Shown: piece by piece, positions 36,607 to 39,356 of the stretch
Layout of the letters: each line of letters opens with the position of its first letter
Numbering within the stretch: the stretch's first letter is position 1
NCBI GenBank assembly: GCA_903919065.1
Contig: CAIXHD010000397.1
Coordinates: 1-40,440 of the forward strand
Direction: 5' to 3'
DNA from: an uncultured Bacteroidota bacterium
GTDB taxonomy: Bacteria; Bacteroidota; Bacteroidia; Bacteroidales; UBA12481
Length of the DNA: 40,440 bases
The notes under the pieces: generated by a model
Told to the model about the DNA's origin: nothing
Database searches by the model: none
What the model saw: the letters and a program-made list of their open reading frames with translations, nothing else
Translations under genes and position numbers: made by a program

Positions 36607-38283
36607 TTATACGGTCTGATAGAGGAATCGCTTGATCTTTTTGGTGGCGGTTTTTTCGAATGGAGTGTCCTGAATGATAATGGCCTGAAGTTTTGAATAG
36701 CGGTTAACCTGCGAGTTAACAAATTGCTGCAGTTCAGCTTTCATCTCTTCAATCTTGTTCTCCATTTGCTGGCGGGCTTCATCTTTAAAATGAGCGAATT
36801 GCTTTTCCAGTTCCTCAAAATTAAGATGAACAAGAGCTACCAATCGACCTTTTTGTTCAACGACAACAGATTCAAGAACGTATTGAAATCTATTGATAAC
36901 CGATTCAATTTCCTCCGGATAAATATTCTCACCTGAGGCACCGAGGATTACATTTTTCAGCCTGCCTTTGATAAACAGATATCCATCGTCATCAAAGAGC
37001 CCTAGGTCACCGGTTCGGAACCAACCGTCGGGCATGAGAACCTGAGCAGTAATTTCAGGTTCATTATAATAACCCTGCATAACATTATCGCCTTTAGCCC
37101 ATATTTCACCAATACCGGTTTCAGCATCGGGATCGTTGATTTTCAGTTCGCAGCCAATCACTGCCTTTCCGGCTGATTGAATCTTTGTTCCGGAAGGCCT
37201 GGTTCCGCTTAACAGAGGAGCAGTCTCGGTAAGACCGTAGCCGATTGAATAAGGGAATCCGCCTTCTTTAAGAAAACGGTCAGTGGCTTCATCCAGTTTA
37301 GCACCGCCAATGCCGAAAAATCTCAGTCGGCCGCCGAAGGTAGCCATGAGTTTTTTCGACGCCATCCGATGGAAGAATTTCCGAAATGCCGGCAGGCGAT
37401 ACAAAGATCTAAGGATAGCAGATTGTTCAACTTTTCCCCTGATCTGTGTCCGGAATATTTTCTCAATAACCAGAGGTACGCTGACCATATGCGTGGGCCT
37501 CACTTTTTGCAATGCAGGCAACAATACCGAAGCGGTAGGCAGTTTATCAAGATAATGGACACATGCTCCATAGTTTAGTGGAAGCATCATACCGACAGTA
37601 TTTTCGTAAGTATGCGACAATGGCAATATCGAGAGGAAAACATCCGAGGAGACAATTGGCTCTACGCCATAACACTGCCTTATGTTGGTAACCAGGTTTC
37701 TGTTATTTAGCATGACGCCCTTACTGAATCCAGTAGTTCCGGAAGTATAAATGAGAGTTGCCAGGTCATCAGGATCGACGCTAACTGTAAACGGATTTAA
37801 CGAGCCTTTTGGAGAATACGGGATAAAGGAATCGTCGATGTCAATCTGGTTACGGTTACTTAACAAGGAAAAGTCTTCCAGAACCATGATATGCCCCACT
37901 GCGGCAATAGTTTTATCCGATAGCCTGGTGAGCTGTTTCCTGCTTACAATGATCATCTTAACTGAAGCATGCTCAAGGATATGATCGATCTCTCCCGCAT
38001 GAAAATCCGGAAGGATCGGTACAGCAATTATCCCGAGGGAAAGAACTGTAAAATAAGAAATGATCCAATTTGGTGAATTGGGTCCAAGGATGGCAACTTT
38101 ATCTCCTTTAGTCAGGCCCATCTGAGTCATCACAAATGCCAGATGCTCTACCTGATCTCTTATTTCATTGTAAGTAAACAACTTATCACCCAACATTCCG
38201 ACTGCGGGGAGGTTTGAATGTTTCTTGAAGCTATCCCACAAAATATCCCTGACCGTCATCCCCAAAACCGAATCGTTCGTCAT
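36607..38283 (-). CDS. AMP-dependent acyl-CoA ligase (FadD-like)
   Basis: A 558-residue adenylate-forming enzyme with the ATP loop YTSGTTGFSKG (179-189), YGLTETAPLLSG, WFRTGDLGLFDDDGYLFIKGR and the C-terminal lysine block FEKTATKKIKRF. This is the long-chain acyl-CoA synthetase type, which activates fatty acids through acyl-AMP. Residues about 480-530 form a charged helical insert. Exact chain length preference is not visible. A -7-like element TATTTTTG lies 29 nt upstream. Confidence 0.9.
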   Translation of the reverse strand: MTNDSVLGMTVRDILWDSFKKHSNLPAVGMLGDKLFTYNEIRDQVEHLAFVMTQMGLTKGDKVAILGPNSPNWIISYFTVLSLGIIAVPILPDFHAGEIDHILEHASVKMIIVSRKQLTRLSDKTIAAVGHIMVLEDFSLLSNRNQIDIDDSFIPYSPKGSLNPFTVSVDPDDLATLIYTSGTTGFSKGVMLNNRNLVTNIRQCYGVEPIVSSDVFLSILPLSHTYENTVGMMLPLNYGACVHYLDKLPTASVLLPALQKVRPTHMVSVPLVIEKIFRTQIRGKVEQSAILRSLYRLPAFRKFFHRMASKKLMATFGGRLRFFGIGGAKLDEATDRFLKEGGFPYSIGYGLTETAPLLSGTRPSGTKIQSAGKAVIGCELKINDPDAETGIGEIWAKGDNVMQGYYNEPEITAQVLMPDGWFRTGDLGLFDDDGYLFIKGRLKNVILGASGENIYPEEIESVINRFQYVLESVVVEQKGRLVALVHLNFEELEKQFAHFKDEARQQMENKIEEMKAELQQFVNSQVNRYSKLQAIIIQDTPFEKTATKKIKRFLYQTV

Positions 38284-38311
38284 GTTTTGAATTTTTCAAC
38301 CGGTAAATTTA

Positions 38312-38319
38312 CAAAAATA
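38312..38319 (-). promoter_or_regulatory. Possible -7 element (TATTTTTG) for the acyl-CoA ligase gene
   Basis: On the minus strand TATTTTTG matches TAnnTTTG and would start transcription near 38305, with a leader of about 22 nt. No convincing -33 element is seen. Confidence 0.4.
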
Positions 38320-38468
38320 GATGGATGGTGGTTGTATAATCTTTAAATCACAGGCCAAATCAGCGCATATTATGCTAAAATCTCCGGCATTTATGAATTA
38401 ATATTTCTCACTTACATATTTAAACCACCATATTAAGAAGTCCATCCACTCTACAACCAACTGACCTA

Positions 38469-38499
38469 TTGACTTTTACCTTTTTGTCTATTATTTTTA
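38469..38499 (+). promoter_or_regulatory. Possible promoter of the candidate RNA (TTG-N20-TATTTTTA)
   Basis: TTG at 38469-38471 and TATTTTTA at 38492-38499 are 20 bases apart and match the Bacteroidota consensus with one mismatch in the -7 box. The start point would be near 38506. Confidence 0.4.
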
Positions 38500-38505
38500 A
38501 TTCGG

Positions 38506-38676
38506 AAAGACAAGGGTAATCGGTTGACCTGTCTGGAGTTGTTTGAAAACATGGAAATGAGGTTTGGCTGACCTTAAACAAGTGAAAGGAACAAAACGGT
38601 TGGGGGACACCCGTTCGAAAACAATCACAACTTTTCTAAATAAAAGGCAGCTCTTCGGCAGGTCAACCTTTTTTTG
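38506..38676 (+). ncRNA. Candidate structured noncoding RNA, about 170 nt
   Basis: No believable gene covers the stretch 38284-38747. Inside it GGTTGACCTG (38522-38531) is an exact reverse complement of CAGGTCAACC (38659-38668), and the second half is followed at once by seven T (38669-38675). A second long-range stem nests inside: GGAGTTGT (38535-38542) with ACAACTTT (38627-38634). Further inside are two local hairpins, AGGT/ACCT (38560-38574) and AACGG/CCGTT (38595-38615). A promoter-like element precedes it. Length is near that of 6S RNA, but the branched fold and my memory of known families do not give a match to 6S, SRP, tmRNA or RNase P RNA. The minus-strand frame at 38497-38709 has no family features. 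Confidence 0.5.
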
Positions 38677-38713
38677 CAAGTAATTTTTTCTTCCATATTC
38701 TCCTCCCAAATAT

Positions 38714-38748
38714 CAAAGGGGCTCCTCTTAACAGAAGGGCCCTTTTTT
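38714..38748. terminator. Bidirectional terminator after hisIE
   Basis: AAAGGG and CCCTTT arms with an inner CCTTCT/AGAGG stem form a hairpin. On the plus strand seven T follow; on the minus strand the hisIE transcript would end with a weaker TTTGATATTT tail. Confidence 0.55.
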
Positions 38749-39356
38749 TATTTATCTCCGTGATGGCGGCTGGCAAGAACTTTGGCTACATCCTGCAATG
38801 ACCAGCCCCGATCGACCAGCAAAACAATAAGGTGATACATAAGATCAGCGCTTTCATTCAGGAATGCATCATCATCGGATTTCATGGCTTCGATAACGAG
38901 CTCAACAGCTTCCTCGCCCACCTTTTGGGCAATCTTGGCAGTACCCTTATTAAAAAGCTTTGCCGTATATGATCCTTCGGGCAGTGTATGTTTGCGTTCC
39001 TTGATTATTTCCTGAAGAAAATCCAGGTACATAAGGTCGCCATTATTTATTTCATTAAAGCAGGTGTCGGGTCCGTCGTGGCATACCGGGCCATCGGGTT
39101 TAGCCATGATCAGGAGGGTATCGCGATCACAATCGGCAACAATTTTCTTTACTCTGAGCGAGTTTCCGCTGGTTTCGCCTTTTGTCCAAAGGGTATCGCG
39201 GGAGCGGCTAAAGAAAGTCACCAGACCAGTTTCCCTGGTTATTCTAAGTGATTCCTCATTCATGTATCCAAGCATCAATACTTTGCGGGTTACATCATCC
39301 TGAATTATGGCCGGAATCAGGCCATTGCCTTTTGAAAAATCGAGTTTTTCGTCCAT
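38748..39356 (-). CDS. hisIE: HisIE: phosphoribosyl-AMP cyclohydrolase / phosphoribosyl-ATP pyrophosphatase
   Basis: A 202-residue bifunctional enzyme of histidine synthesis (steps 2 and 3). The HisI part (1-110) has LMLGYMNEESL, FFSRSRDTLWTKGETSGN and the zinc-site block CHDGPDTCF. The HisE part (about 115-202) has the acidic helices KVGEEAVELVIEAM and NESADLMYHLIVLL of the MazG-like pyrophosphatase fold. It follows hisF by 13 nt and is the last gene of the operon, which is the usual order in Bacteroidota. Confidence 0.95.
   Translation of the reverse strand: MDEKLDFSKGNGLIPAIIQDDVTRKVLMLGYMNEESLRITRETGLVTFFSRSRDTLWTKGETSGNSLRVKKIVADCDRDTLLIMAKPDGPVCHDGPDTCFNEINNGDLMYLDFLQEIIKERKHTLPEGSYTAKLFNKGTAKIAQKVGEEAVELVIEAMKSDDDAFLNESADLMYHLIVLLVDRGWSLQDVAKVLASRHHGDK

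Follow-up and report, generated by a model that had tools for sequence, protein, structure and literature searches.

To our knowledge, few small RNAs (sRNAs) of Bacteroidota have been described outside the human-gut Bacteroides. No obvious homolog of Hfq or ProQ is known in Bacteroides, and a single study of Bacteroides thetaiotaomicron listed 124 intergenic sRNA candidates, 49 of them with high confidence (PMC7366714); given the 124 candidates, the existence of a new intergenic sRNA is unsurprising. The nearest functional precedent for the locus described here is GibS (BTnc035) of B. thetaiotaomicron, an intergenic RNA of 145 nt with a conserved promoter and a terminator, whose conserved single-stranded 5' seed pairs with the start regions of two metabolic mRNAs (PMC7366714). 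Other lineage-restricted structured RNA candidates, including Bacteroidales-1, Bacteroides-1, Flavo-1, and Bacteroid-trp, have come from comparative genomics (PMC2864571). The 6S RNAs (RF00013 and the 6S-Flavo family, RF01685) are rod-like molecules closed by a terminal helix, in which a large, open-promoter-like central bubble interrupts a fully paired rod.

The stretch of DNA analyzed here (the window; 40,440 nt) contains a gene-free gap at positions 38284-38747, bounded by an acyl-CoA synthetase gene on one side and hisIE on the other, both on the minus strand. The original prediction, made from the letters alone, had placed a structured RNA of about 170 nt in this 464-bp stretch and had found no credible gene there. 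Both statements hold: a conserved structured RNA at 38504-38675 (Table 1) is well supported by homologs, compensatory base changes, and a conserved promoter, and the 70-amino-acid open reading frame (ORF) on the minus strand of the gap has no Pfam match and is not kept in frame among the homologs, so that coding conservation is not seen. The predicted position was correct to within two bases, with the extent being 38504-38675 instead of 38506-38676. Reading the raw sequence of one genome can reveal a real unannotated RNA.

Table 1. Coordinates of the RNA gene, its structural and regulatory elements, and its neighbors in the window
Feature	Position	Strand	Remarks
Small RNA gene	38504..38675	+	Putative transcript of ~172 nt; cmsearch 185.6 bits; homologs in 9/12 family genomes
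-33 element TTGA	38469..38472	+	Aligned in nine homologs; 19 nt before the -7 element where measured
-7 element TATTTTTA	38492..38499	+	Bacteroidetes TAnnTTTG type; ends 4 nt before the putative start
Invariant 5' tail GGAAAGACAAGGGTAA, presumed seed	38504..38519	+	16/16 columns invariant in nine sequences
P1 closing helix, 5' arm	38522..38533	+	108/108 cells paired; both-side changes at 5/12 pairs
P2, 5' arm	38535..38544	+	Partner 38645-38654
P3, 5' arm	38552..38557	+	Partner 38633-38638; closes the three-way junction; same place, sequence varies between genera
Hairpin P4	38558..38576	+	Carries the conserved GGTTTGGCTGA block, 38561-38571
P5 enclosing hairpin P6	38582..38628	+	P5 38582-38585/38625-38628; P6 38595-38599/38611-38615
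Conserved P6 loop GGGGGACA	38602..38609	+	GGGGGAC invariant in nine sequences
P2, 3' arm	38645..38654	+	Partner 38535-38544
P1 closing helix, 3' arm	38657..38668	+	Partner 38522-38533
T7 tract after P1, presumed 3' end or terminator	38669..38675	+	Shorter T runs in other genera
Second, classical terminator hairpin and T tract	38715..38749	+	Same reading direction; overlaps the hisIE stop codon
Acyl-CoA synthetase (AMP-binding) gene	36607..38283	-	Divergent from the RNA; Pfam PF00501, E 6e-79
hisIE	38748..39356	-	Convergent to the RNA; PF01502 and PF01503

As judged from its published features, GibS resembles the candidate in size, host order, intergenic location, possession of its own conserved promoter, and a highly conserved unpaired 5' end, and the terminator of GibS may have a 3' counterpart in the candidate (PMC7366714). 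However, apart from local metastable hairpins, GibS has little structure, and it is transcribed from a PM2 promoter (PMC7366714), whereas the candidate is predicted to form a closed rod containing a three-way junction and is preceded by a promoter of the sigma-ABfr type. Its elaborate, well-conserved structure is somewhat unusual. In the window sequence, the plus strand of the RNA folds at -53.8 kcal/mol, compared to -37.3 +/- 3.8 kcal/mol for dinucleotide shuffles (z = -4.35; none of the 200 shuffles equaled it), and the fold of the minus strand is unremarkable (z = -1.30). The perfect 10-bp terminal helix followed by seven T that had drawn attention to the region is present, with arms at 38522-38531 (GGTTGACCTG) and 38659-38668 (CAGGTCAACC) spaced by 127 nt and T residues at 38669-38675; two further pairs extend this closing helix, P1, to 12 bp. 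Across both strands of the 40-kb window, this is the only perfect 10-nt inverted repeat (within 250 nt) that runs into T7. The second, nested helix and the two inner hairpins, likewise part of the original prediction, appear in the minimum-energy fold, where the 5' tail is unpaired and an internal loop of ~7/6 nt leads to the three-way junction.

Homologs of this RNA were found at one locus in 9 of the 12 genomes of the GTDB family, representing four genera. In a DNA search of 60 related genomes, same-genus matches showed 78-95% identity, and three further genera of the family gave weaker ones. The nine sequences were used to build a covariance model, which scores 136-191 bits in the nine genomes. 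The three genomes that have no match (G001, G003, and G007) also have no complete hisIE or intact acyl-CoA synthetase ortholog (G003 carries one fragment of each, G001 and G007 only a distant paralog), so the RNA may be absent there just because the assembly lacks the region. The RNA is 69-97% identical to the window copy, compared to 55-80% for the 60 nt upstream, and is better conserved than these 60 nt both within and across genera (e.g., 0.71 vs 0.55 for L001-L006). Samples of 295 genomes from the order and 395 from the class yielded no credible homolog beyond the family, in searches whose strict filters a very divergent relative could escape. In other families, no homolog lies near hisIE or the acyl-CoA synthetase gene, and no match was found in phages, plasmids, or viral contigs. 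Weak model hits in other families (L034-L040) look on inspection like coding sequences matched by chance. When 84,980 species genomes were scanned for the 5' motif, eight family contigs and one unrelated match came up; the sole pattern match outside Bacteroidota, in a betaproteobacterium (L051), lacks the rest of the RNA. The public contigs bearing the RNA were assembled from metagenomes and belong to uncultured Bacteroidales or Bacteroidetes. These Bacteroidales are known from metagenome assemblies only, and a well-delimited family that has a covariance model, a presumed seed without variation, and a fixed locus offers a concrete entry point.

In a MAFFT alignment of the nine sequences, RNAalifold predicts P1 and P2. 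Covariation in homologs, which the original prediction had put forward as the check, came out in favor of the structure: both sides have changed at 8 of 24 pairs (16 cells vs 4.8 in shuffles; none of the 500 shuffles reached this number), and shifting the partners by one to three columns abolishes the signal. Despite such changes, P1 pairs in every one of the nine sequences, with variants including ACCUGUC/GGCAGGU, GUCCGAC/GUCGGGC, GCCCAAC/GUUGGGC, and GCCUGUU/AACAGGU; we read these as about five separate compensations if shared ancestry is allowed for. Because MAFFT misaligns the middle of the RNA, a single architecture (P1, P2, P3, P4, and P5 around P6) was imposed on each sequence. In eight sequences, this architecture either has the minimum energy or lies at most 1.8 kcal/mol above it, a result that shows compatibility and not independent prediction, as the helices were hand-picked from individual folds. 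In L009, the constraint used the first of two possible 3' arms of P3, and the free minimum-energy fold has the same architecture. All nine sequences are thus predicted to share the rod, the three-way junction, and the two hairpins. P5 reads GUGA/UCAC, CGUGA/UCACG, GAUC/GAUC, or UCGU/ACGA, depending on the genome; since the sequences of P5 and P3 differ between genomes, it is the shape that is kept while the sequence changes.

A TTG and a TAnnTTTA-like element are found at matching positions just before GGAAAG in all nine copies. The promoter-like element seen in the original prediction lies at 38469-38499; in a sigma-70 scan, it does not by itself exceed chance (2 found vs 1.2 expected), but its TTGA-19-TAnnTTTA version is kept among the homologs, with a spacing of 19 nt in the copies measured. 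The conserved elements fit the sigma-ABfr promoter consensus, TTTG/TAnnTTTG (PMC7366714). With both neighbors on the other strand, the RNA looks like a free-standing gene with its own promoter, apparently transcribed independently into a predicted product of ~172 nt starting with GGAAAGAC. Its 3' end is less certain, the T tract being strong in this genus only; P1, a long-range helix that closes over 123 nt, may serve as the terminator stem. A strong terminator hairpin with a U tract 40 nt downstream recurs with altered arms in all five same-genus genomes, so a longer form of the RNA, of ~245 nt, is possible. This hairpin may mark such a second 3' end or may shield hisIE against antisense read-through.

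The longest invariant stretches of the RNA are mainly unpaired: the tail GGAAAGACAAGGGUAA, which is free in eight of the nine minimum-energy folds (in L004, part of it pairs with the 3' U tract), and GGGGGAC in the P6 loop. A further invariant block, GGUUNGGCUGA at hairpin P4, spans stem and loop. An invariant unpaired tail and loops would be expected if the molecule base-pairs with a partner or is bound by one. Across the 12 family genomes, the 16-mer complementary to the tail (up to 2 mismatches) is not enriched, with ~47 sites besides the gene itself vs ~58 for the reversed control. Ordinary base-pairing seeds are 7-10 nt long, shorter than the whole 16-nt tail, and the search speaks against long near-perfect targets, not against seeds of 7-10 nt.

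The best explanation, to which we assign a probability of roughly 0.52, is that the locus encodes a free-standing, lineage-restricted, trans-acting base-pairing sRNA similar to GibS. A sigma-ABfr-type promoter would direct transcription from ~38504, and termination would occur near 38675, where the P1 helix meets the U tract; the second terminator lies 40 nt beyond. The long P1-P2-P3 rod would close and protect the molecule and present the three-way junction with its two hairpins. The tail and the loops UUGGCUG and GGGGGACA could then pair with the translation start regions of several mRNAs and alter their translation or stability, as with the 5' seed of GibS. It is the precedent of GibS that favors trans-acting base pairing, with a protein-binding RNA ranked next.

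The rod, being more structured than GibS, could point to a protein partner instead. In such a regulatory or scaffold RNA, a protein would recognize the two conserved loops and the tail, and the RNA would titrate or guide that protein. The rigid rod with its three-way junction, the invariant loops, for which the RNA itself offers no evident partner, and the tail, for which no long target is enriched, all favor this explanation; however, the repeated binding motif of CsrB-type sponges is missing, and the only gene that stays with the locus encodes an ordinary acyl-CoA synthetase, so that we consider a protein-binding function unlikely, if still worth weighing. It is more doubtful still that the RNA represents a new structured class with a protein partner, in which the two invariant loops and the invariant tail form one recognition surface; if true, this would make it a global regulator specific to the lineage and set it apart from ordinary base-pairing sRNAs.

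The genomic neighborhood bears on another alternative, namely that the element acts in cis, its transcription or its transcript controlling the divergent acyl-CoA synthetase gene. This gene adjoins the RNA in G000, G002, G004, G005, G006, G008, G009, and G011; in G010, the RNA and the gene lie at the ends of different contigs, as expected if they adjoin, and hisIE ends directly next to the 3' end of the RNA. In G011, another gene replaces hisIE downstream of the RNA, and the acyl-CoA synthetase gene is retained upstream. Since the latter is found beside the RNA wherever this can be checked and hisIE is lost in G011, the lasting neighbor is the divergent acyl-CoA synthetase gene, a point in favor of control in cis. 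However, the RNA and the acyl-CoA synthetase mRNA would not overlap if each starts at its own promoter, complementarity of the tail and loops to the acyl-CoA synthetase leader is at chance level, and covariation and conserved loops point to a function of the molecule itself, making a cis-acting element improbable.

In keeping with the original prediction, which could match it to no known class, the RNA fits none. It has no match in Rfam 15 at the gathering score, and the four matches obtained at E values up to 10 all score below 17 bits against cut-offs of 30-79 and are not credible; none of Bacteroidales-1, Bacteroides-1, Flavo-1, and Bacteroid-trp is matched even at an E value of 10, and no tRNA or tmRNA was detected. 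By every test applied to the sequences, this RNA family is new, although its kind, the intergenic sRNA restricted to one lineage, is familiar.

Were the candidate a second, divergent 6S RNA able to bind RNA polymerase, its size range and closed rod would fit, and Bacteroidales 6S RNAs do score far under the Rfam cut-offs. This identity was rejected: a separate 6S-Flavo-like RNA is already present in the same genome (L078 593-733, G000:C593), as well as at the zapA-rny junction in relatives that carry the candidate, where RF01685 finds low-scoring copies. The copy in the window's own genome is 93% identical to that in G004 and is assigned by the zapA-rny synteny in relatives, its score of 29.7 bits (cut-off, 85) being weak alone. 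The candidate, in contrast, gives no RF00013 or RF01685 match up to an E value of 10, has no large central bubble, and carries an 18-nt unpaired 5' tail, all of which leaves a 6S role very improbable. The least tenable explanation, chance hairpins or a degenerate coding region, could appeal to the small sample of nine sequences but is already contradicted by the compensatory changes and also faces invariant blocks across four genera, a conserved promoter, and reading frames that are broken and unrelated, and we give it almost no weight.

Several observations concern the surroundings of the RNA and the other RNAs encountered. Bacteroidales 6S-Flavo-like RNAs (L078 and L057-L073; at zapA-rny where checked) reach only ~30-45 bits, whereas the Rfam gathering score is 85; annotation at that cut-off therefore misses them in this order. 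In G011, the downstream side of the locus is rearranged, with the RNA and the acyl-CoA synthetase gene still together; the gene downstream of the RNA (L048 3728-7126) encodes a 1132-aa protein that looks HEAT-repeat-like by eye. In G050 (L148), a member of another family, a 570-nt gap upstream of the closest relative of the acyl-CoA synthetase gene holds no sequence related to the RNA; like the gap in the window, this one is long, and it carries repetitive stretches resembling CCCTATGC. In the window, two overlapping perfect inverted repeats, 38325-38333/38423-38431 (ATGGTGGTT/AACCACCAT) and 38329-38336/38452-38459 (TGGTTGTA/TACAACCA), lie in the stretch that separates the RNA promoter from the start of the acyl-CoA synthetase gene. 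With their overlapping left arms, they could form alternative hairpins of the acyl-CoA synthetase leader. In the same stretch, CTCTACAACC is retained in several same-genus copies.
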